A stretch of 28,148 nucleotides of DNA from a virus, in IMG/VR virus record IMGVR_UViG_3300033490_000004, positions 1-28,148 of that record. One strand, 5' to 3'. The notes beneath the pieces were generated by a model. It had not been told where the DNA came from. It made no database searches and was given only the letters and a program-made list of their open reading frames with translations. Both the position numbers and the translations under genes were made by a program. This document shows positions 1,799 through 27,390 of the stretch, in pieces (the stretch's first letter is position 1; every line of letters starts with the position of its first letter).

Positions 1799-3072
1799 AA
1801 TCCCACCACCTCACCAGTCCTTGGATTGAAAGCACAAGCGATTTGCCAATACACAGTGTCGGAAAGCGGGTTATTGTTGCTGTCAAGATACTCAACGAAG
1901 ACCAAGTTGGTGCCGGGATGGAGGACGAAGGGCAATTGGCTTGAAATGTCAACTTGGTTCGTCACATCGGCGACAGTTGTGGCAGTTCCTCTGCTTGCGA
2001 TGTATACCTTGCCATCTTCACGAAACGAAATGACTTTGCCCGCCTCAGTGCCGTTGAGAACAAAGATGGCGGTTTGATCCGCTGGGACGACCCTGACGCG
2101 AATTTTGTAGCCATTAACTGCTGAACCGGGATTGACGCGAACTTCGCATGGAGTTTCTGCTGTGATTAGGTCGTTGCCAACCAAAATCCTGAGCGGTTCG
2201 GAAGATGATGGGTAAGTTGGTGGCGAAACAGTCAAGTAGCGGTTTTGATGGTAGCCGTAAGGTTGGAGAAGTTGAAGTTCAATGACGGCTCTGACAACTA
2301 AGCCACCGACGGGTTCAAAGCGCAACGATGCTGGGGCGCAACGAAATAAGTAGCCGTCAATGAACAACTCAAGCGGGTAACGGGCTGATGGCTTGGTCAA
2401 AAGCCCTTCAAGTTGTTTCCGCAAAGTCGTTTCGGTTCGGGAAAACAGAAGGGTTATTGTCAGCCGTTTTGCTGTCCACCGGTAATGCGTCCCGACAAAG
2501 TAGCGTCCAAAAGGCATCTGAAAAACTTCGGTGTCAGAATCAGCGGGAATCAAATCTTCAAGGTATGGTTCAATGTCAATGAACTCCCAAAGTCGAACTT
2601 CGTCAAGGTCTTGAGTTCCTCCCGATGCAGGGATGCTGACAGCGACTCGCCACCAACCTTGTGCTGGTTGTGTCCAACGGAGTTCATAGAAAGTGTTTCC
2701 AGATGTCGGCGTAACATGAGCAACTCCATTAGGGTTGCCCAACACAAAATAACCTCCAAGTGCTGGGTTGCTTCCGAGCCCAAACCTTGCAACTGCTCCT
2801 GCAGCAAAAGAAGGTGCAGCGTGATCGACACTAACACCTAATGCTGATGGTCCATAACTTACCCTCATATATCGTGAATGCAATGAATAAATACCACCGA
2901 GAAAAGAGCCAATATTCTCTCGCTGAAACCATCTCTCAGTCGTTCGCTGATAATTTGCCCAAGCGGGATATGATTCAGTGATCGGACATGTTTCACTTGG
3001 GAATTTCAAAAAGTTGAAATCCCCGTATGGGTCGCCGATGAGCAGCCGCCTCAACTCTATGGGCACAAACAT
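1795..3072 (-). CDS. Distal tail (Dit)-like protein with an inserted beta-sandwich
   Basis: The protein has about 425 residues. I chose ATG 3072, which overlaps the upstream stop (TGATG); a GTG at 3075 is the alternative. The C-terminal part contains LHPGTNLVFVEY, a common closing feature of Dit-type tail proteins, and residues about 185-275 form the N-terminal-type barrel (LTITLLFSRTETTLRKQLEG, then YPLELFIDGYLFRCAP). Residues about 60-165 look like a separate beta-sandwich (VRLWEF at its end), which would be an insertion into the first Dit domain and could bind sugars. Dit forms the hexameric ring that joins the tail tube to the hub. The gene is followed at once by the hub gene, as expected. 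Bases around 2840-2960 are visibly richer in A and T than their surroundings, so the insertion may be newer than the rest. The Dit call is by position and motif style. Confidence 0.55.
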   Translation of the reverse strand: MFVPIELRRLLIGDPYGDFNFLKFPSETCPITESYPAWANYQRTTERWFQRENIGSFLGGIYSLHSRYMRVSYGPSALGVSVDHAAPSFAAGAVARFGLGSNPALGGYFVLGNPNGVAHVTPTSGNTFYELRWTQPAQGWWRVAVSIPASGGTQDLDEVRLWEFIDIEPYLEDLIPADSDTEVFQMPFGRYFVGTHYRWTAKRLTITLLFSRTETTLRKQLEGLLTKPSARYPLELFIDGYLFRCAPASLRFEPVGGLVVRAVIELQLLQPYGYHQNRYLTVSPPTYPSSSEPLRILVGNDLITAETPCEVRVNPGSAVNGYKIRVRVVPADQTAIFVLNGTEAGKVISFREDGKVYIASRGTATTVADVTNQVDISSQLPFVLHPGTNLVFVEYLDSNNNPLSDTVYWQIACAFNPRTGEVVGL

Positions 3073-3269
3073 CACCGACCTTTGTCAGCGACTGGCGATT
3101 GGCGATTGGCGACTTGTTGCTTTTCTTCGTCGTAGCGTTTGATTTGACCTGCGGCGACCCGTTCAAGCAATTCAACCCATTTCGCCGCTTTCTCTGGGTC
3201 GCTTTCCTGCTCCAGTCGGGCAAGCAACAAAGCGATGACCCGCTCCGTCAGCGGAGTTTGTTGCTCCAT
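3072..3269 (-). CDS. Small helical tail-region protein ending in repeat-coded residues
   Basis: The product is 65 residues, mostly charged helix (TERVIALLLARLEQESDPEKAA). ATG 3269 has a strong ribosome site (GGAGG at 3279-3283); GTG 3272 is also possible. The last about 15 residues (QQVANRQSPVADKG) are encoded by a heptanucleotide repeat array, so the gene's 3' end has been replaced or extended by repeat DNA. It sits between the tube and Dit genes, where siphophages normally carry tail assembly chaperones and then a long tape measure gene. A chaperone role would fit the position and length, but there is no sequence evidence for it. Function is unknown. Confidence 0.6.
   Translation of the reverse strand: MEQQTPLTERVIALLLARLEQESDPEKAAKWVELLERVAAGQIKRYDEEKQQVANRQSPVADKGR
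3088..3115 (+). repeat. Heptanucleotide array, family A (GGCGAYT units), in a coding region
   Basis: Four tandem 7-nt units of the type GCGACTG/GCGATTG lie inside the end of the 65-aa gene above. On the coding strand they read VANRQSPVA. Confidence 0.85.
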
Positions 3270-5917: not shown

Positions 5918-7045
5918 TCAGATACTCATGATGAACATACGACGCTGTCTAATAATGACTAAGCCAATTTCCTCATTGCCAACACTCGTTGTTGGTTCTG
6001 GGTCGCTTCGTTTACGAACTAAAACTCTGCGTGGATAATTAGGAGTAGCATAGCCATAGTAATTGTAGAGGTCAGCGATTTCAGCAGAAGTCAAAGCACG
6101 GGTAAAAAGAAAAACTTCATCTACAATGCCTTGGAGTGGTTTATTCACATCACGCAAGTCCATACCTATAGCAGTTTTAAGGGTATTGTCAAGCGATCTA
6201 ATCGTTCCTGATGCTTGTGCATCAAGCTTTCCGTCAATGTAAATATACCCATTTTCACCCTGTCGCACTGCCACAATGCTGTGCCATTGCCCATCATTAA
6301 CTTGTGTTGTTGACCATATCTCCCACTGAAATCCGGAGTTGTAAACCATGAAGTATATCTTACCAGGGTATAAAGCACTGTTGTTATGATTACCCCCCAA
6401 ATTTACCATCCATTCTCCTTGATAGCCTGGTGCTCTCTGGGCAATAATATATCCTCCTCCTGTAAAAGTGCTTTTTAGCCAAAATACGACTGAAAAATCA
6501 ATTGGTCCACTAAGAGACGGGGCTGTCCCGAAGTCAACATAATCGTCCACACCATCAAAACTTAATGCATTGCCATACCGACCTTGCGTCCATGTTGCTC
6601 CGTAGATTGTTCCATTAAAGTTGTTGCCGCTTTGGTCATAAACCGTTGAGCCGCTTCCTTCATCCATTGGAACAGCCAATCGTAACGGTTGCCCATTATC
6701 AATTTCACGAATGAAAGTGTTCGCTATACTGCTTTCGCTTTGAGCAGTTGTGTTGCCGTAGTAAAAATAGATGACCTTCGTTCCGTTGGCAGGAATAGAA
6801 GGAACTTTTACCCAAATCTTCGTGTTGCTTGCATTAATCGGTCCTTCAATCCAGTAAGGCAGCAAAGTTGTGCCGTCGCTGTCAGTGAAACGAATGTCGT
6901 CGCAATCCGCCTGCATTTTCCCTTGCTGAATGAGCGACGCTGTGTCAACTACAACGAGCACTTGATAATCAGTCAGTTCGTTTGAATTGTTTGTGTTGTT
7001 AATTGTGACTGGACGCCGAAATGACCAACCCGTAAGCCATCCCAT
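5918..7045 (-). CDS. DUF2341-LamG adhesin (tail-associated, lectin-like)
   Basis: I start it at ATG 7045, one base after the fibre stop (TAA at 7047-7049); the longer form from 7075 overlaps the fibre gene. The product is 375 residues. The first ~110 form a DUF2341 module: WSFRRPVTINNTNNSNELTD, DSDGTTLLPYWIEG, then VIYFYYGN. From ~130 a concanavalin-A-like LamG domain follows, with AVPMDEGSGSTVYDQSGN, ALSFDGVDDYVDFG, FSVVFWLKS, GYIYIDGKLDA and GIVDEVFLFTRALTSAEI. This pair is common in secreted and phage tail adhesins and binds sugars, often with calcium. It is probably a receptor-binding or decoration part of the tail. The DNA here is clearly more A+T-rich and uses more ATA and TTA codons than nearby genes, which suggests recent acquisition. 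Confidence 0.75.
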   Translation of the reverse strand: MGWLTGWSFRRPVTINNTNNSNELTDYQVLVVVDTASLIQQGKMQADCDDIRFTDSDGTTLLPYWIEGPINASNTKIWVKVPSIPANGTKVIYFYYGNTTAQSESSIANTFIREIDNGQPLRLAVPMDEGSGSTVYDQSGNNFNGTIYGATWTQGRYGNALSFDGVDDYVDFGTAPSLSGPIDFSVVFWLKSTFTGGGYIIAQRAPGYQGEWMVNLGGNHNNSALYPGKIYFMVYNSGFQWEIWSTTQVNDGQWHSIVAVRQGENGYIYIDGKLDAQASGTIRSLDNTLKTAIGMDLRDVNKPLQGIVDEVFLFTRALTSAEIADLYNYYGYATPNYPRRVLVRKRSDPEPTTSVGNEEIGLVIIRQRRMFIMSI

Positions 7046-7046
7046 T

Positions 7047-8834
7047 TTAGACCACCACCCATTCATCTGTTCCAATCTTTACGATTACCCTGACATCATA
7101 TTGGGTCGTAATTATCGCCTGATTATTCGGGTCTCTAAGTGTTACTTCAGTATCACCCTGAATTGTCACATCACCAGAACCATATTTCATGATTACTATC
7201 TTCGTGCCAAGTGGGAAAGGCACACTTGCGTTTGTCGGGATTGTTACTGTTACAGCACTTGAAGCATTCATCTTGATGAAACTGTTTTTGTCGGTAAGTT
7301 GGAGCGTGTAACTTGATGTTTGTTCAGTTACGGGAGTGTCAACTTCGGAGGCTTGATGACTATGGCTTGGCAGGTGTGTTGTCGGAAGTTTCGCATTCGC
7401 ATCCAGCGGGGCATAACCGTCCGCAACACCTTTGTTTACAATCTTTTCAAAAGCAGTGCTGTCTAAACCGTCTAACTTGTCAGCATCTAAGTTACTTCCT
7501 GAACCCTGCGGTATCCAGCCCAAAGCAATTTTGCCTGATGTATCTGCTTTCGGCACGGCGTTTGCTGTCGGCGTCGTCGTAATCGTCTCTAAGTCAGTAA
7601 TTTGTGACTTTGTGTGCGTGTGGCTCGGCAAGTCACTTGCTTGAATGGTATCGTAAATGGGGTCTGAGTTTGCTGTGCGAACGACAAGGAAACGGTTGGC
7701 ATTCGGTGAAGTTGGAAGCCTTGATGCGCTTAAGCGTCCCGAGGCAATTTCAGAAGCGTCATGTGTGTGACTTGGTAAGTGGGCTAATGGTAATTTGGCG
7801 TTTGAGTCCAAGGGAGCATAGCCATTTGCGACACCCTTGTTGACGACTTTCTCTAAATCAGCACCTTCAAACCCATCAATTTTGTCCGCATTTAACGAAG
7901 TAACAAGCGTTCCAGTGCCTTTGATTGAAGTGTCACGAATATAACGACCTTCAACACCTGTTGTGTCCGTCGCAACGATTTCACCATCAACAACCCTTAA
8001 TTGCCTGTTTGCTATAGGTGTCGCATCAACATCCTTAATTGTTGGGTTGACTAAAGTTTTGTTTGAAAGTTCTTGATTGTCTGCCGTGTAAACCGTGTCG
8101 CTTGGAAGTTCTGCCTTCGTCCATTGCCCGCTTAACGAAATCTTTGATTTTGCGATGTTAGCGTTGGCAGCGATGTGGCTGTCAGTGATGACGCCAGATT
8201 TGATGTTTGCAGCAATGTCAAACTGGTCGTTCGCTGCGTCCTCAGTGACTACAAAATCAACCGTTCCAGTCCCTCTAAAGTCCAGTCTCCTCGCTACAGT
8301 TCCAATCTGCGTTCCGTCTTTGAAGACTTTGACCTTTTCGTCTGTCCCGCCGCTACCAACTCCCGTGTTGACAATCGTAATTGTTTTTGCATTGTTGTCT
8401 TGTTGTAACTGAATACCAGTGCCAGCAAGCAGCCGAACATCACCCTTGAGTAATGCGTTATTGTCAGCAGCGATTCCTGTTACTGCTTCGTCTGGTGGTG
8501 TGACGGGTGGCGGAGTTATGAGAAGGTGGGTGATGTGAATGGGTTCTGTGTAGCCAGTTGAAGGCACTCTGATCGCATATTCGTTCGCTTTGCGACGCTT
8601 GTGTGAATATTCAATGACTTTGTAGTATGAATTTGGATCGCTCATCAAATCGTTGGGCTCTAATTCAACTTCCCATCGCCCATTGGCGTCTGTCTTCGTT
8701 TCAACACTCCACGCCGCAATTTCTTTTTGCTCACCTGCCACGAAGGTCGGGACATTCAATTGTATTCGGACGGGAACACCTGTAATTGGTTGTCCCGCTT
8801 CATCCGTGATGATGTTGAAAACTCTCCTCGTCAT
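7047..8834 (-). CDS. Tail fibre protein with duplicated HxH modules
   Basis: 595 residues; ATG 8834 follows AGAGGTGA. Residues 1-100 form an Ig/transthyretin-like N-terminal domain (DEAGQPITGVPVRIQLNV, KTDANGRWEVEL). The shaft contains two copies of a ~50-residue module, 313-363 and 448-497, each with an ADK(I/L)DG start, a NKGVA(N/D)GYAPLD core and a LPSH(T/S)H end. HxH pairs occur at 356/358, 405/407 and 491/493; in trimeric phage fibres such as T4 gp37 such pairs bind a metal ion along the axis. The last ~95 residues (SYTLQLTDKNSFIKMN, FPLGTKIVIMKYGSG, IVKIGTDEWVVV) match a C-terminal beta domain common in phage fibres. It is likely trimeric and involved in host attachment. Confidence 0.75.
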   Translation of the reverse strand: MTRRVFNIITDEAGQPITGVPVRIQLNVPTFVAGEQKEIAAWSVETKTDANGRWEVELEPNDLMSDPNSYYKVIEYSHKRRKANEYAIRVPSTGYTEPIHITHLLITPPPVTPPDEAVTGIAADNNALLKGDVRLLAGTGIQLQQDNNAKTITIVNTGVGSGGTDEKVKVFKDGTQIGTVARRLDFRGTGTVDFVVTEDAANDQFDIAANIKSGVITDSHIAANANIAKSKISLSGQWTKAELPSDTVYTADNQELSNKTLVNPTIKDVDATPIANRQLRVVDGEIVATDTTGVEGRYIRDTSIKGTGTLVTSLNADKIDGFEGADLEKVVNKGVANGYAPLDSNAKLPLAHLPSHTHDASEIASGRLSASRLPTSPNANRFLVVRTANSDPIYDTIQASDLPSHTHTKSQITDLETITTTPTANAVPKADTSGKIALGWIPQGSGSNLDADKLDGLDSTAFEKIVNKGVADGYAPLDANAKLPTTHLPSHSHQASEVDTPVTEQTSSYTLQLTDKNSFIKMNASSAVTVTIPTNASVPFPLGTKIVIMKYGSGDVTIQGDTEVTLRDPNNQAIITTQYDVRVIVKIGTDEWVVV

Positions 8835-8846
8835 TCAACTCACCTC

Positions 8847-9068
8847 TTATGAACACAAACGCGCAAACAAAGAATGCAACTTCTCTCGTAAGCATCTCTT
8901 TTCACCTCGTCGATTGCCGGCTTGCGACTGGTGACTGGTTAGGTGATGCAGGTGATTGAAGACGATTTTGCGCAATTTGCGCATCTGGAAGTGGGCGTAA
9001 GCGATTGTCAAGCCCAAGAAAATCCATGCTGCCATCTGCATCACTTCTTTAAGTTCCATCGCCATCAC
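8847..9068 (-). CDS. Small membrane protein, C-terminus partly repeat-coded
   Basis: About 73 residues from GTG 9068 or the ATG next to it; it overlaps the holin-like gene before it by 20 nt. One hydrophobic segment (AAWIFLGLTIAYAHF) is followed by a basic, amphipathic region (MRKLRKIVFNHLHHL). Residues TSHQSQAG are encoded by a heptamer array at 8921-8940, and the rest after that may be random extension. Its position in the lysis block suggests a second holin or spanin-like part, but there is no specific motif. Confidence 0.5.
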   Translation of the reverse strand: MMAMELKEVMQMAAWIFLGLTIAYAHFQMRKLRKIVFNHLHHLTSHQSQAGNRRGEKRCLREKLHSLFARLCS

Positions 9069-9240
9069 GCTCCAGCATGAGCATTAGTCGCTCAATCTTC
9101 TCATCAATGCGAATCAAGGCGTTGACGATTTCCTGAACCGTCATGACCTTGTTGACGAAATACATGAGCCAAAGAGCCACAACGATAGGAAAGCCCAATT
9201 CCTTTACGAACCCTGCAATTGCGTTCAGCCATTCGGTCAT
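9049..9240 (-). CDS. Holin-like protein (BhlA/UviB-like)
   Basis: 63 residues from ATG 9240 (GAGGTGATTTG just upstream). It has one membrane segment (GFPIVVALWLMYFVNKVM) followed by a coiled coil (TVQEIVNALIRIDEKIERL), the arrangement seen in BhlA/UviB holin-like proteins. The gene is two genes after the amidase, so a role in permeabilising the membrane for lysis is likely. The family call is from architecture and size. Confidence 0.55.
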   Translation of the reverse strand: MTEWLNAIAGFVKELGFPIVVALWLMYFVNKVMTVQEIVNALIRIDEKIERLMLMLERDGDGT

Positions 9241-9254
9241 CAAATCACCTCACA

Positions 9255-9292
9255 ATAGCGACTGGCGACTTGCGACTGGCGACTGGTGATTA
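9255..9292 (+). repeat. Family A heptamer array filling an intergenic gap
   Basis: AGCGACT, GGCGACT, TGCGACT, GGCGACT, GGTGATT units. It occupies nearly all of the space between the stop at 9290 and the start at 9240. Confidence 0.85.
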
Positions 9293-9538
9293 CTTGATCA
9301 ACTGGACGGCAAGTTCAATGGCAAGGTTGATGGCGGATTCTTTGAGTTCCTTGCCCCTCGCTATGGCTTCTGCCTTAATCATCTCAAAAGCCCGCTTCCG
9401 CTTCTCTTCGTTCGTCCAAGTTTCCATCTTCGCCGCTTCCTTGACTGCCAAAATTGCAACCTCGCTAAGTTCACCAAGCAAGTGTTCAAGCATCGCTTTT
9501 GCAAACGGTTTGAAGAAGCGTTTAACGAGCCATTTCAT
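9290..9538 (-). CDS. Small helical protein, LLH-type holin-like
   Basis: 82 residues; ATG 9538 overlaps the amidase stop (ATGA). The C-terminal half (AVKEAAKMETWTNEEKRKR, then ELKESAINLAIELAVQLIK) resembles the soluble C-terminal half of phage holins of the LLH type, which have 'AV.AAE....G.EKK......A' and a final 'I..LIE.AV'. There is no obvious membrane segment in the N-terminus (MKWLVKRFFKPFAKAMLEHL), which is amphipathic. Position next to the amidase suggests a lysis or virion-internal role. Confidence in the family is low. Confidence 0.45.
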   Translation of the reverse strand: MKWLVKRFFKPFAKAMLEHLLGELSEVAILAVKEAAKMETWTNEEKRKRAFEMIKAEAIARGKELKESAINLAIELAVQLIK

Positions 9539-10101
9539 CGCATCACGACCTCCTTTGTGCGAAGTTGCAACGAAGCCGCCACGACTTTTGCAAGTTGCTC
9601 GGCGTGGTCGGCTTCAAAGTCGCCGTAAAAGCAACGAGCGCCACGGTCGTTGGGCTGGGAAGTTTTGAATTTGTGCCCGATGTCTATGCCGATGACGGCA
9701 TCAAAGGGAAGCCACTTGACTAAAGCATCAGCGATGGCTTCGCCCAGTTTTCGGATGACTTGGACATCGTGGACAAGGTTGGCTTCTTCGGGGTTGGTGA
9801 TAAAGCAAGGTTCAAGCAAGATGGCAGGACAGTGATAAAACCGCAAAAATCCAGCCCTTGAGCCTTCAGCCTTCTTCACGCCCCTTGACCTTGTGCCCAA
9901 GACGCTGGTGATGATGTGAAGGAGTTTCGCTGCGATGTAATCTGCATCGCCCTTGCCGTTAGAGAAAACTTCGCTCCCTTGCGCCTTCGGGTCGGCAGCG
10001 TTGAAATGGAAACTGATGACAAGCCGACAATTGGCTTTTGATGCCTGCATTTGCCGTTCATGATTTCCAACATAGTCGCCTTTGAGCCAGACAATCTTCA
10101 C
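9535..10101 (-). CDS. N-acetylmuramoyl-L-alanine amidase (Amidase_3), circularly permuted
   Basis: 188 residues from GTG 10101, coupled to the gene before it (GTGAGCAATCGTGA region) and to the one after (ATGA). It should be the endolysin that cuts the amide bond between MurNAc and L-Ala. Canonical Amidase_3 order is DxGH, DxGA, Glu, SxHxNA, then ExxFxxN. Here the protein begins in the middle: KIVWLKGDYVGNHERQMQAS (strand 2), ISFHFNA with His32, LLEPCFITNPEEAN with Glu97, the final helix (IRKLGEAIADALVKWLP), and only then IGIDIGHKF with His143, NDRGAR at 151-156 and GDFEADHAEQLAKVVAASLQ with Glu163. All three zinc ligands and the catalytic Glu are therefore present but reordered. No second copy of the N-terminal block exists upstream. 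Confidence 0.8.
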   Translation of the reverse strand: MKIVWLKGDYVGNHERQMQASKANCRLVISFHFNAADPKAQGSEVFSNGKGDADYIAAKLLHIITSVLGTRSRGVKKAEGSRAGFLRFYHCPAILLEPCFITNPEEANLVHDVQVIRKLGEAIADALVKWLPFDAVIGIDIGHKFKTSQPNDRGARCFYGDFEADHAEQLAKVVAASLQLRTKEVVMR

Positions 10102-10511
10102 GATTGCTCACCTTCTTCCATCAGGATTTGCTGAATCCGGGCGAACTTGTCGGCGGAAACGAGGTCACGGAGGGCATCAAGGGCTGCTTTCGCTCGCTCT
10201 TCCCGCTCCCTTGCAAGTTCCAACTGCTTTCGCTTTTCTCGCTCATAGCGAATGAGCAAATCAAGTCGCTTGAGTTCGTCGGCTTTCTCCGTTTGCAAGA
10301 TCAAGTAGCGCTCCATCGCACGAAGTAGGTGCCTCTTGTGGCGATAAACGGTTTGGTAACTGACGCCAAGACCTTGAGCGATTTCCTCGTAAGTCTTTCC
10401 CGCCTTCATTTGCTGCCAGATTTCTTCCTGCATGTCTGCATCGAGCCGACACAAGCGACAGCGAGAGAAACTTTTGAGCATGGGCAAAAGTTCCCAAGCA
10501 TCTCTGGGCAA
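10098..10511 (-). CDS. HTH protein, putative terminase small subunit
   Basis: Up to 137 residues; the start is unclear (TTG 10511, or ATG 10481). Near the N-terminus there is a CRLCRLD Cys pair. A helix-turn-helix follows: MKAGKTYEEIAQGLGVSYQT, then VYRHKRHLL. The rest is a long charged coiled coil (EREKRKQLELAREREERAKA). HTH plus coiled coil is the usual layout of small terminase subunits, which recognise phage DNA and oligomerise. It lies next to, but divergent from, the large terminase gene. A transcription factor of the lysis/tail operon is the alternative. It reads away from the 44-bp palindrome. Confidence 0.5.
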   Translation of the reverse strand: MPRDAWELLPMLKSFSRCRLCRLDADMQEEIWQQMKAGKTYEEIAQGLGVSYQTVYRHKRHLLRAMERYLILQTEKADELKRLDLLIRYEREKRKQLELAREREERAKAALDALRDLVSADKFARIQQILMEEGEQS

Positions 10512-10861: not shown

Positions 10862-12596
10862 ACGGAAAGGGACGAGGGGCGAGGGACGGGGGACGAGGGA
10901 TGAGGGAAAGGTAACGGAGTTTATCGCGACGCTGAAACTGCCTGATGGGAAAGAGTTTCGTTGGGATGGGCACGAAGATTTGAAAGCAATTGCGGAAGAT
11001 AATGCACAAGTCGTCATCGTGGAAAAAGCGGCGCAAAAGGGCGTCACTGAGTTGATGCTGCGATTGCAATTCTGGCTTTGTAAACAAGGCTTTTCATCCG
11101 CCTACTTCCTTTCTTCGCTCCGTTTTCTCCGAATGCAAGTTCAACGGCGGGTTGAGCCACTAATTCGGGCAAACCCCATCTTGCAAAAAGCCCTTGTTGA
11201 AGGCGCTGAACGGGAGTTGCTCGGTGAAGAGGATGAAGTTGAAGGGTTGCCGAAAAAGTATCGCTTGAGAGATAACCTCTACCTGAAGCGGCTTTGGGAA
11301 GGGTGGCTGCTTTACATGCCCGTCCAAAGCGAAGCTGATGTCCGCATGTTTCCACTTGATGCGATTTTTGTTGACGAAGTTGAAACGCTCAATCCTTCCT
11401 TGACCGATGCGTTGCAAGAGCGCCTTTACCATTCGCCCTTGAAATGGGAACGATGGTTCAGCCAGCCGACGGTTGCAGGTTACGGCATTGACGAACGATT
11501 TGCGATGACAGATCAGCGATACTGGCATCTCAAATGCCCAAAGTGCAAGCAGTGGTTTGCGATGGAAGAGCATTTTCCAAATGTTCTGATGGCGACGGTT
11601 GAAGACAAGCCTACATTGTGGGGCGGCGATTGGGATGCAACGACTTGGGATGGACGATGGAAGTTTTCCTATTGTTGTCCCTTCTGCCGGTCGCTAATTG
11701 ATACACTGTCGCTTGAAAAAGAATGGGTTGCAAAATATCCCGACAGGGACGCTCACGGTTATCACTTATCGCAACTTTATTCGGCGACGATGACAGCAAC
11801 TGATGTGGCTCGTTTGTGGCATCAAGCGCAATTTTCGCTGAGGCGCAAAGAGCGATTTTTCAACTCCGTCTTGGGCTTGCCCTACTCTGGTGGCGAGCGG
11901 CAACCGATTACGCCCGAAAAAGTGATTTACGGCACTCACGATTTAGGCATATTGAATGAGTTAAATAAGCGCTTTGCGGGCTTGGATGTGGGAGACCGGC
12001 TACATCTTGTCGTGCTGGAGCAACTTCCCGATGGAGTTTTGGCGCTTGTTTGGGCGGAAGAATTCAGCGGGATTGACAAATGGGAGCGGGTTGCCCAGAA
12101 AGTTCGTTCGCTGAAAGTTTCCGCTATTGCTGTCAACGCCATGCCCTACAAAGACAGTGCCAAAAAGTTGCTCAGACAACTTGCCCCGGAAATCAAAGGC
12201 GTTTTGGTTTACGATACTGGCGGGCAACGAATGTCCATCGGCGAGGAAGACAAAGAAACAGGGCAACCCATCAAGACCATCTCCATCCCAAGAGTGGAAC
12301 TCATGGACGGGACGGTTGATGCTGTGCTTTCAGGACGAATCATCTTCCCACGCAAAAACATCCCCATCACTGAGCAAGTTGTCAAGCATTTGCAGAACTA
12401 CATCATTGAGATTGACGAAACGGGCAAGCGGGATTACGCCAAAGGTCGGGAAGACCACTTTGGTCGTGCCATTGATTACGCCCGCATAGTCGCAGAAACT
12501 GCAAGGGCACTCAGGGCGATGCCTGCCGAGCCAATCAGGGCTGATTGGCTTGCTGGGACGCCTTTGGTGCCATCGTTGGGAGGTGTGTCATGGTGA
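10770..12596 (+). CDS. Terminase large subunit, GpA type
   Basis: 608 residues. The start (ATG 10770, or ATG 10779) is the weak point, because it overlaps the small gene upstream. The ATPase motor has a deviant Walker A, VEKAAQKGVTELML at about 85-98, comparable with the KSARVGYSK loop of lambda gpA, and a Walker B (AIFVDEVETL, Asp202-Glu203). Between motor and nuclease there are two Cys pairs (KCPKCK at 255-260 and CCPFC at 302-306) as in other GpA-type terminases. The RNase-H-like nuclease starts at FAGLDVGDR (Asp406). The enzyme cuts and pumps phage DNA into the capsid, and in a Mu-like phage does so from integrated copies. Residues about 31-47 (KRKGTRGEGRGTRDEGK) come from a heptamer array, placed before the motor core. 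Confidence 0.85.
   Translation: MKTMLSALRNLFGKRFSALSVVDPALKKALKRKGTRGEGRGTRDEGKVTEFIATLKLPDGKEFRWDGHEDLKAIAEDNAQVVIVEKAAQKGVTELMLRLQFWLCKQGFSSAYFLSSLRFLRMQVQRRVEPLIRANPILQKALVEGAERELLGEEDEVEGLPKKYRLRDNLYLKRLWEGWLLYMPVQSEADVRMFPLDAIFVDEVETLNPSLTDALQERLYHSPLKWERWFSQPTVAGYGIDERFAMTDQRYWHLKCPKCKQWFAMEEHFPNVLMATVEDKPTLWGGDWDATTWDGRWKFSYCCPFCRSLIDTLSLEKEWVAKYPDRDAHGYHLSQLYSATMTATDVARLWHQAQFSLRRKERFFNSVLGLPYSGGERQPITPEKVIYGTHDLGILNELNKRFAGLDVGDRLHLVVLEQLPDGVLALVWAEEFSGIDKWERVAQKVRSLKVSAIAVNAMPYKDSAKKLLRQLAPEIKGVLVYDTGGQRMSIGEEDKETGQPIKTISIPRVELMDGTVDAVLSGRIIFPRKNIPITEQVVKHLQNYIIEIDETGKRDYAKGREDHFGRAIDYARIVAETARALRAMPAEPIRADWLAGTPLVPSLGGVSW
10860..10912 (+). repeat. Family B heptamer array in the terminase N-terminus
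   Basis: GGGACGA, GGGGCGA, GGGACGG, GGGACGA, GGGATGA units, preceded by AAACGGAA. Bases 10860-10897 match 15491-15528 at 37 of 38 positions. Confidence 0.9.
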
Positions 12597-24851: not shown

Positions 24852-25586
24852 TCACCACTCAACGACAAGGTTCTTCGTCACAAACCGCAAATCTTGAACC
24901 GTAAGTTCTGTCGTCAGTTTCTTCCTTGCCGCTGCGTAGGCAAACAAGTGAGAAACCACTCGTTGGAGCCGCCTGAAGTTGCCCTGCGTCAAGTCGTAAA
25001 TCGCTTGCAATAACTCACCGTTGAAGTCCGCTCCATGCAGGAGTTCAAGATCGCTGAACGAAAGCGGCGGGACGACGAAACGCATCGCAACACGATCTCT
25101 CGCCTGCGGGTAGCGGGAAAGCAACTTGACAATTTCGCCTTCGTGACCAATGAGCAAGATTGTTGCCCCGGTGAAGTCATGGAGCCGCCGAAAAACATCC
25201 AACGCCTTGCCTGTCAGCCATTGAGCCTCGTCAAGGAAAATCGTTCGTGGGGCATTGCCGTTGCTTGCCCAAAGTTCCAGAGCCTCCAACGCATCCCACA
25301 GCGATGCCGGCTGCCGACCAGTAATTTCGGCGACAATTGTTCGGAAGAAACGGCTCGGAGATTTTTCAAGGACGACACGCTCAACGACGGTGATGAATGG
25401 GATGTTGTAGCGCTTTGCGAAAGAGAGAGCCCCGAAAGTTTTCCCAACGCCCGGCTCACCTTCCAGAACTGCCATGCACCTTGAACCAACGACTTCCCTC
25501 AAAAATGCCCAAGTCGCCTTGTAGGGTTGCGTTTCCCGCAACTTTGCTTCATCATAAGTTACTGGGTTGACCATCAACCGACGCAT
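24852..25586 (-). CDS. MuB-like AAA ATPase, transposition target selector
   Basis: 244 residues from ATG 25586 with GGAGGCGAACAACC; it overlaps the transposase end by 35 nt. Walker A is LEGEPGVGKTFGAL (about 43-50), Walker B is RTIFLDEAQWL (Asp119-Glu120), followed by ATILLIGHEGEIVKLLSR as sensor region, ARDRVAMRFVVPPLSFSDLE and a C-terminal helical domain (LTQGNFRRLQRVVSHLFAYA). This is the MuB/TniB-type layout. The protein forms ATP-dependent filaments on DNA, chooses target DNA and activates the transposase, and gives target immunity. No long N-terminal HTH like that of MuB is seen. Confidence 0.85.
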   Translation of the reverse strand: MRRLMVNPVTYDEAKLRETQPYKATWAFLREVVGSRCMAVLEGEPGVGKTFGALSFAKRYNIPFITVVERVVLEKSPSRFFRTIVAEITGRQPASLWDALEALELWASNGNAPRTIFLDEAQWLTGKALDVFRRLHDFTGATILLIGHEGEIVKLLSRYPQARDRVAMRFVVPPLSFSDLELLHGADFNGELLQAIYDLTQGNFRRLQRVVSHLFAYAAARKKLTTELTVQDLRFVTKNLVVEW

Positions 25587-27390
25587 GGTTGTTCGCCTCC
25601 TTCTCCTCATCGTTTATCCACCAGAACCCCGCAAAGGGGTTCTCCTCTTCCCGCCTCTTTCTCAGCGCTTCTTCAATCTCCTTCCTTTGTTGCTCAGCGA
25701 ATATGTGCAAAACTTCCATTTGCTCCTCCCAACTCATCTCAGGCTCTTCCTCAAGGTCAACGGGTTTTGCTGGTCGGTAAGGCAGGAAGGTCTTGGGGTT
25801 AGCAAGGAAGGCATTGACTTGTGCGACAAACTCATCCCGATACTTCAAAATCACATCGTCAACCCATTCGCCCTCCCGCTTTGCCTGCTCAACAATCTGC
25901 TTTATCCGCCTAACCATCGCCCGCTTGAATTCCGTCCAACATTGGGCTGTTTCGCTGTCTTCAATGTATCGCCAGCATGGCACTTCAATCGCTCGTGCCG
26001 CTTCTAAATCGCCACCAATCGGTTCATCGTTCAGGAAAACCCAAGCACGCAGGTCGGGAGCGACATAAAGAGTGACCTTCCGCGTGTCGCCAAATGCAGC
26101 CATAATCGCTGTCCCATAGTTCCACCAGCGATATTGACCCCAACCAACCTCTCCATCCCGCTGCGGCTTCCTTTGAGTTGATGGCAGCAACATGACCCGA
26201 AGCATTTCCTCATTGAGTTCCGTCCTGTTGGCTTTCGCTTGAAAGACTTCCAGCCGCCTTCCATTCCAGTGCTGGCACATTTGAGCGTTCCATTTGCGAG
26301 CCCATTCCTTGAGCAACTGATTGAACTCCCGAACCGACAGAATTCGCCGCCCTGAATCGTCAACCCAGTAAACTTCGCCCGTCTTCATGTCGATCTCTTT
26401 GCGAAGTTTCCCTGACTCCGTCGTCGGCGGTCGGCTGTCAGGTCGGTTCAATGAGCCAAGATAGCCGGGCAAGTAGGCTTCAAGTTGCTGGTGAATGAAG
26501 TTGAAAAGTGCTTCAACTTGCGGCTTAGAGCCGGGATCGTAAGGGCGGGCATGTTGGACGCTTATCCGTAATTTTTTGCAAACCTTCTCAAGCGCCTGAT
26601 TGTTTTCCACCTTGCCCCAGTCCACAACCAAAACTTTCGGTTTCGCCTGAATGCCTGTCAGTTCGCCAAGCAGGGCGTCGGCGAACAAGGCGTTAAAAGC
26701 AGCGGCATCAAAGAAGGGGCTGAATTTGCCGTCAACTTGCCTCTCAACGGCAGCAATCGCCAAGACTGTCATCGTCCCTTGATCAACGAAAGCACCAATC
26801 TCATAACGAGCCACTTCTCCCTTCCACTCATCCCGCATCAATTGAATGTCCGACTTAGAACGGTCGGCAAGCCAAACCATGCCCGGCGGAACGAGCGATG
26901 TGTGGGAAGCCCGGAAGCGTTTGCGGAGACGGAGTTTGCCTTCCCGATAGGCGGATGGAAGCGACTGCAAAAAGCGAAGGGCGGTGTAGTAGGAGACGGT
27001 TTCGTGTGGGCAATTATCGGATGCTTGACATTCAGGCGAACACTCAAACTCCCGCAAATAAAACTGCCACAAAACTTTTGCAGGAAGATGGGCAGTGGCA
27101 GGGTTGGATGCCAATCTCATCAAAACTGCCTTGTGGCTCGGCAATAATTCCGAAGGTCGCCCACGGTCTAAATCATCCCTGCCATTACCATTGACAGATT
27201 TGAGCCATTTCAAGAGCGACCAATGAGTTATCCCGATTGCTTTTGCCAGCGGTCTCAGTTCCCAACCGCTTTTCAACGCTTCCAACACAACTTTACCTCG
27301 CTCAACCGCTGGCGCTCCCTCAGAAATTAGCGACTGTAACATCGCTACATATCTCCAGTCACCGCTCTTTCCTTTCCTCGCCATCTCCAT
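25552..27390 (-). CDS. DDE transposase, MuA-like
   Basis: 612 residues; ATG 27390 or ATG 27384 (overlap with the XRE gene 27359-27390). It carries out phage integration and replicative transposition. An N-terminal HTH (WELRPLAKAIGITHWSLLKW, about 43-62) is followed by a Cys-rich stretch (CSPECQASDNCPHE, Cys117, Cys121, Cys127, His129), then the RNase-H-like core: MVWLADRSKSDI with Asp176, KVLVVDWGKVENN with Asp257 and GSKPQVEALFNF with Glu293, the order and spacing of D269-D336-E392 in MuA. The mu-type C-terminal beta barrel follows (KVTLYVAPDLRAWVFLNDEP), then an acidic coiled coil (MSWEEQMEVLHIFAEQQRKE) that probably contacts the ATPase. Confidence 0.9.
   Translation of the reverse strand: MEMARKGKSGDWRYVAMLQSLISEGAPAVERGKVVLEALKSGWELRPLAKAIGITHWSLLKWLKSVNGNGRDDLDRGRPSELLPSHKAVLMRLASNPATAHLPAKVLWQFYLREFECSPECQASDNCPHETVSYYTALRFLQSLPSAYREGKLRLRKRFRASHTSLVPPGMVWLADRSKSDIQLMRDEWKGEVARYEIGAFVDQGTMTVLAIAAVERQVDGKFSPFFDAAAFNALFADALLGELTGIQAKPKVLVVDWGKVENNQALEKVCKKLRISVQHARPYDPGSKPQVEALFNFIHQQLEAYLPGYLGSLNRPDSRPPTTESGKLRKEIDMKTGEVYWVDDSGRRILSVREFNQLLKEWARKWNAQMCQHWNGRRLEVFQAKANRTELNEEMLRVMLLPSTQRKPQRDGEVGWGQYRWWNYGTAIMAAFGDTRKVTLYVAPDLRAWVFLNDEPIGGDLEAARAIEVPCWRYIEDSETAQCWTEFKRAMVRRIKQIVEQAKREGEWVDDVILKYRDEFVAQVNAFLANPKTFLPYRPAKPVDLEEEPEMSWEEQMEVLHIFAEQQRKEIEEALRKRREEENPFAGFWWINDEEKEANNHASVDGQPSNL

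Follow-up and report, generated by a model that had tools for sequence, protein, structure and literature searches.

The Amidase_3 enzymes are among the commonest families of cell-wall hydrolases, and structures have been solved for several of them, including CwlV (1jwq), PlyPSA (1xov), AmiP (7b3n) and the C. difficile enzyme 4rn7. In AmiP, which comes from a Thermus prophage, the zinc is bound by His17, Glu32 and His85, and Glu145 is the catalytic residue (PMC9929850). A precedent for circular permutation exists in a superfamily holding peptidoglycan hydrolases, namely the permuted NlpC/P60 families (YaeF/G6R-like and LRAT-like; PMC6403190), but these have a cysteine peptidase fold and are unrelated to the amidase considered here. 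For Amidase_3 itself, the preliminary description of the present locus knew of no natural permutation, and our search of the open-access literature (most subscription journals lay outside it) found no description of one either. The window analysed here, by which we mean the whole 28,148-nucleotide stretch of the virus record IMGVR_UViG_3300033490_000004, has on its minus strand (9535..10101) a gene for a 188-aa protein that is very probably such a permutant, serving a Mu-like transposable phage of hot springs as its endolysin.

Amidase_3 (PF01520) was the sole Pfam family that matched this protein at E-values up to 10 (with no LigB or Memo match), with a score of 77.5 bits (cut-off, 27). The match fell into two stretches, the better of which placed residues 10-127 on profile positions 53-172, while the C-terminal 61 aa alone aligned to positions 1-46 with 13 bits (E 0.11 against all of Pfam). 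Once the sequence was rotated computationally, the two partial matches merged into a single one covering positions 1-172 of the 174 in the profile, at 84.2 bits. To the same effect, a custom HMM built from 16 natural-order amidases of phages and bacteria aligned the native chain to its positions 58-173 and then 2-47; when all 188 cyclic rotations were scored with it, the best single-domain score rose from 89.3 bits (native) to 114.5 bits (rotated), with a peak at offset 130-134 and its top at 133-134, where the junction was expected. The C-terminal block alone reached 21.5 bits, a score attained by none of 2000 shuffles (best, 7.9 bits). Database searches behaved similarly: in tblastn against phage genomes the native order retrieved two records at an E limit of 1e-5 and the rotated one 25 at the looser limit of 1e-3, the rotated query matched a natural-order Vibrio phage amidase with 34% identity over 94%, and the phmmer match to 4rn7 was partial with the native order and extended over the whole domain once the sequence had been rotated. 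The columns G, H, G, E, H, G, E and F are invariant across the rotated and natural-order sequences. Counted over both blocks, all parts of the Amidase_3 domain are thus present, in an order other than the usual one of the described members (order is not part of the Pfam cut-off). Profile order, rotation and shuffles all uphold the original claim that the first strand and helix (DIGH...DRGA...E) sit after the normal last helix, and the near-complete profile coverage of the rotated sequence agrees with its description as a clean circular permutation from which nothing is missing.

The gene begins with a GTG at 10101, overlapping the stop codon of an upstream HTH protein gene (10098..10511, minus strand), and ends with a TGA at 9535-9537 that overlaps the ATG of a holin-like gene. 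Block 1 (residues 1-131; 9709..10101, minus) runs from canonical strand 2 to the last helix and corresponds to profile positions 53-172. It is followed by a new junction linker, PFDA (residues 132-135; 9697..9708, minus), which the fold model places between helix 113-130 and strand 136-141, and then by block 2 (residues 136-184; 9550..9696, minus), which holds canonical strand 1 and helix 1 (profile positions 1-46 in Pfam and 2-47 in the custom HMM; modelled as strand 136-141 and helix 163-182). Block 1 carries His32 in ISFHFNA (codon 10006..10008) and Glu97 in LLEPCF (9811..9813), and block 2 carries His143 in DIGH (9673..9675) and Glu163 in DFEADH (9613..9615), all on the minus strand. In the alignment, His17, Glu32, His85 and Glu145 of AmiP map in rotated order onto His143, Glu163, His32 and Glu97, so that the first three are predicted zinc ligands and Glu97 the predicted catalytic residue. 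All four had been named beforehand, all four are where they were said to be, and none of them varies among the aligned relatives. After GH the window amidase has five residues, KFKTS, that ordinary DxGHG enzymes lack. The C-terminal TKEVVMR was considered as a doubled strand 2 and rejected: it overlaps the likely ribosome-binding site of the holin gene, AAAGGAGGT, read directly from the sequence at 9548..9556 (minus strand) within the 3' end of the amidase gene, it is absent in L010, and its last four residues have a pLDDT below 50. With the tail so explained, the statement that nothing is doubled also stands.

A search of metagenomes for the same block order, suggested in the preliminary description, yielded 11 further IMG/VR contigs from several metagenomes, with 72-95% identity to the window amidase. 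One source metagenome of the contigs is a Yellowstone hot spring at 69.4 C (PMC8098120, PMC10033731), and the Mu-like phage apparently comes from hot springs. In every contig that reaches that far the amidase is flanked by the HTH and holin genes, and the overlap with the next gene is mostly kept; several differing leaders occur upstream of the start codon, with the protein start unchanged. Comparisons with the window amidase gave dN/dS values mostly of 0.03-0.16 over both blocks (roughly 0.06-0.16 in block 1 and 0-0.12 in block 2; block 1 of L012 was left out because its synonymous sites are saturated), and the moved block is under strong purifying selection. These data bear directly on whether two blocks, from two genes or two copies, have been wrongly joined by the assembly, a frameshift or a misread gene. 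The phage version is known from metagenomic contigs only, which would leave room for such an artefact, but the 11 additional contigs, which agree in block order and mostly in the overlap, the purifying selection to either side of the junction and the same order in a complete bacterial plasmid record (see below) leave it next to no probability, and we have rejected it; the frameshift or assembly join that the preliminary description named as a refuting result is absent. The amidases found in genome contigs during a host search were natural-order ones only, with 26-34% identity.

A first AlphaFold2 model, based on 11 close sequences, had a pLDDT of 77.4 and a pTM of 0.79. Adding natural-order relatives gave a second model with a pLDDT of 90.9 and a pTM of 0.88 (five models agree, at 86-91); in its alignment these relatives entered as separate fragments for each block, which may nudge the model towards the amidase fold, and the first model, made without such fragments, has the identical order of elements at lower confidence. 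The main elements of the second model are strands 2-6, 27-31, 43-47, 72-77, 93-97 and 136-141 and helices 15-22, 53-68, 113-130 and 163-182. The protein is thus predicted with confidence to be a closed domain to which the C-terminal block contributes a strand and a helix, as had been anticipated from the sequence. Solved amidases align to residues 1-135 of the model with Z-scores of 9.6-12.3 and rmsd values of 1.9-2.9 (for 4rn7, Z up to 12.3 and rmsd 2.4 over 129 residues), and the alignment begins near residue 45 of the single-domain solved amidases such as CwlV and runs to their C-terminus. Residues 1-135 therefore have the Amidase_3 fold, and block 2 is a strand plus helix by prediction; a match limited to this portion is what would be expected, since the aligner is order-dependent and the chain is permuted. 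The C-terminal block might instead complete the active site of a neighbouring molecule, giving a domain-swapped dimer or chain. Neither sequence order nor conservation would tell the two cases apart, and a linker of only about four residues between the blocks can favour swapping, yet in both monomer models a single chain closes the domain and residues 136-141 are assigned as a strand, and we regard the swapped arrangement as improbable. Taken together, rotation, shuffles, conservation among the contigs, purifying selection and the fold model support the 188-aa ORF as a true circular permutation of Amidase_3.

The genomic setting suggests what the permuted enzyme is for. With its MuA-like transposase and MuB-like ATPase genes (24852-27390), Mu-type portal and protease and gpA-like terminase, the window genome is, by its predicted gene content, a Mu-like transposable tailed phage. 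Directly downstream of the amidase, and in conserved synteny, are two holin-like genes, both on the minus strand and both with weak scores: one of LLH type (9290..9538; Phage_holin_6_1 E 0.0025, below the cut-off; phrog_2609 holin E 0.00019) and one YvrJ-like (9049..9243; phrog_4898 holin E 1.6e-06), so that their assignment as holins is tentative. Overlapping the second is a hydrophobic 73-aa ORF (8847..9068, minus) that matched no family, is syntenic in most relatives and is possibly a third lysis gene. Neither an obvious signal peptide nor a separate binding domain is present in the amidase, and no other endolysin candidate was seen among the window genes scanned. Since it comes first in a holin-containing lysis cassette of a Mu-like phage and lacks an obvious signal peptide, endolysin is the best reading of its role, the one also proposed at the outset. 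Could the protein be a binding or regulatory relic that is no longer an enzyme? This seems very unlikely, given the four invariant catalytic positions, a dN/dS of about 0.1 and its place in a lysis cassette for which the gene scan turned up no second endolysin candidate. The chain runs from canonical strand 2 to the last helix and, through the four-residue linker, on to strand 1 and helix 1; in a working endolysin, strand 1 would pack back into the sheet, where His143, Glu163 and His32 would hold one zinc beside Glu97. The enzyme would presumably accumulate in the cytoplasm until a holin opened the membrane, and would then cut the MurNAc-L-Ala bond and lyse the host.

Other features of the window vary among the relatives. 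Downstream of the lysis cassette, the region 5918-8834 contains a tail fibre gene that is patchy among them and a laminin-G-like gene absent in all relatives fetched, as expected if host-recognition modules are swapped. Short arrays with a 7-base period (GGGACGA, CCAGTCG) occur at 10869-10900, 15500, 9265-9286 and elsewhere, both in intergenic DNA and, keeping the reading frame, within the terminase gene (KGTRGEGRGTRDEGK); they differ in length between relatives.

Permuted Amidase_3 domains also exist outside this phage family, which extends the preliminary description in two directions. One is a bacterial plasmid gene, THSYN_RS32930 (WP_100923257.1), on pTs485 of Candidatus Thiodictyon syntrophicum, which tblastn against plasmids matched in native order, with an alignment that covers 94% of the query. 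This gene (L073, 7980-9283) lies beside a GerMN-domain gene on a large plasmid with a complete record, is annotated as an ordinary amidase, has no phage genes among its annotated neighbours and has its top rotation score at offset 141. The other is a second and probably independent case, recovered by a generic DNA pattern scan (ExGF[IL][ST]N, then DxGHG 32-42 residues on) that yielded six loci, five of which were chance matches and not amidases. The sixth (L065; IMGVR_UViG_3300002164_000166, 2395-3102, minus strand) encodes a permuted Amidase_3 among phage tail genes, with its top rotation score at offset 137, with the hinge before strand 2 as in the window amidase, and 44-48% identity to natural-order lysins of Paenibacillus, Geobacillus and Bacillus phages; it is represented by one contig, with ambiguous bases. 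Its C-terminal extension looks S-layer homology-like by eye, and Pfam detects no such domain. Scans with the His codon CAC or with longer linkers gave no further permutants. A Peribacillus plasmid match (H81) was rejected, having the natural order despite its one-piece match to residues 10-170 of the query. No permuted match was found in 74 and 246 cellular genomes of two phyla, which says little about distribution because the phyla were chosen via chance loci.

In a phylogeny built from de-permuted and natural-order domains, the Thiodictyon amidase groups with the window family (support 95/98) and L065 stands apart; none of 200 bootstrap trees unites all the permutants. The permutation of L065 thus probably represents a separate event, although with a short alignment, many weak or long branches and one contig with ambiguous bases, two events are likely rather than proven. 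On balance we think it likely that Amidase_3 has been permuted at least twice at the same hinge, once in the lineage of the hot-spring phages and the plasmid gene and another time in a phage lysin of Bacillales type; if so, the loop before strand 2 is a natural permutation site of this fold. The permuted gene could have arisen by tandem duplication of an ordinary amidase gene, after which copy 1 lost its first quarter and copy 2 the remainder; no tandem amidase, the duplication intermediate expected, was seen.

A natural permutant with intact catalytic residues indicates that the fold tolerates new termini. Permutation also shifts the C-terminus, the usual attachment point of cell-wall-binding modules, to the end of helix 1. 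Such proteins escape notice in standard annotation, since a profile search reports their larger block and the name amidase is given all the same. For crystallographers and endolysin researchers, the hot-spring version offers a natural test case for the influence of topology on folding and stability.

With respect to known systems, LigB-like extradiol dioxygenases (7txy, DesB) align in native order to residues 1-185 of the model, with Z-scores of 6-8 and rmsd values of 3.8-5.2, but have only 5-12% identity and no Pfam match to the LigB/Memo families links them to the window amidase. In SCOP, the LigB-like proteins are given as circularly permuted versions of the fold class to which the Amidase_3 amidases belong, so the alignment fits the permuted topology. 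This likeness is one of arrangement rather than of kinship, and Z-scores below 8 may mean arrangement only. The Thiodictyon protein has the permuted order, 29-31% identity and the signature GHK[FY]KxSxPNDRGA, but it is encoded on a bacterial plasmid next to a GerMN-domain gene, with no lysis cassette seen, and carries a C-terminal extension. L065 is likewise permuted at the hinge before strand 2, whereas it is nearest to natural-order Bacillales phage lysins, has a C-terminal extension and lies among tail genes. Finally, CwlV, PlyPSA, AmiP and 4rn7 are homologous to the window amidase across both of its blocks: they share its four active-site residues and the fold of its residues 1-135, and what sets it apart from these solved enzymes is the C-terminal position of strand 1 and helix 1, together with the five additional residues after GH.
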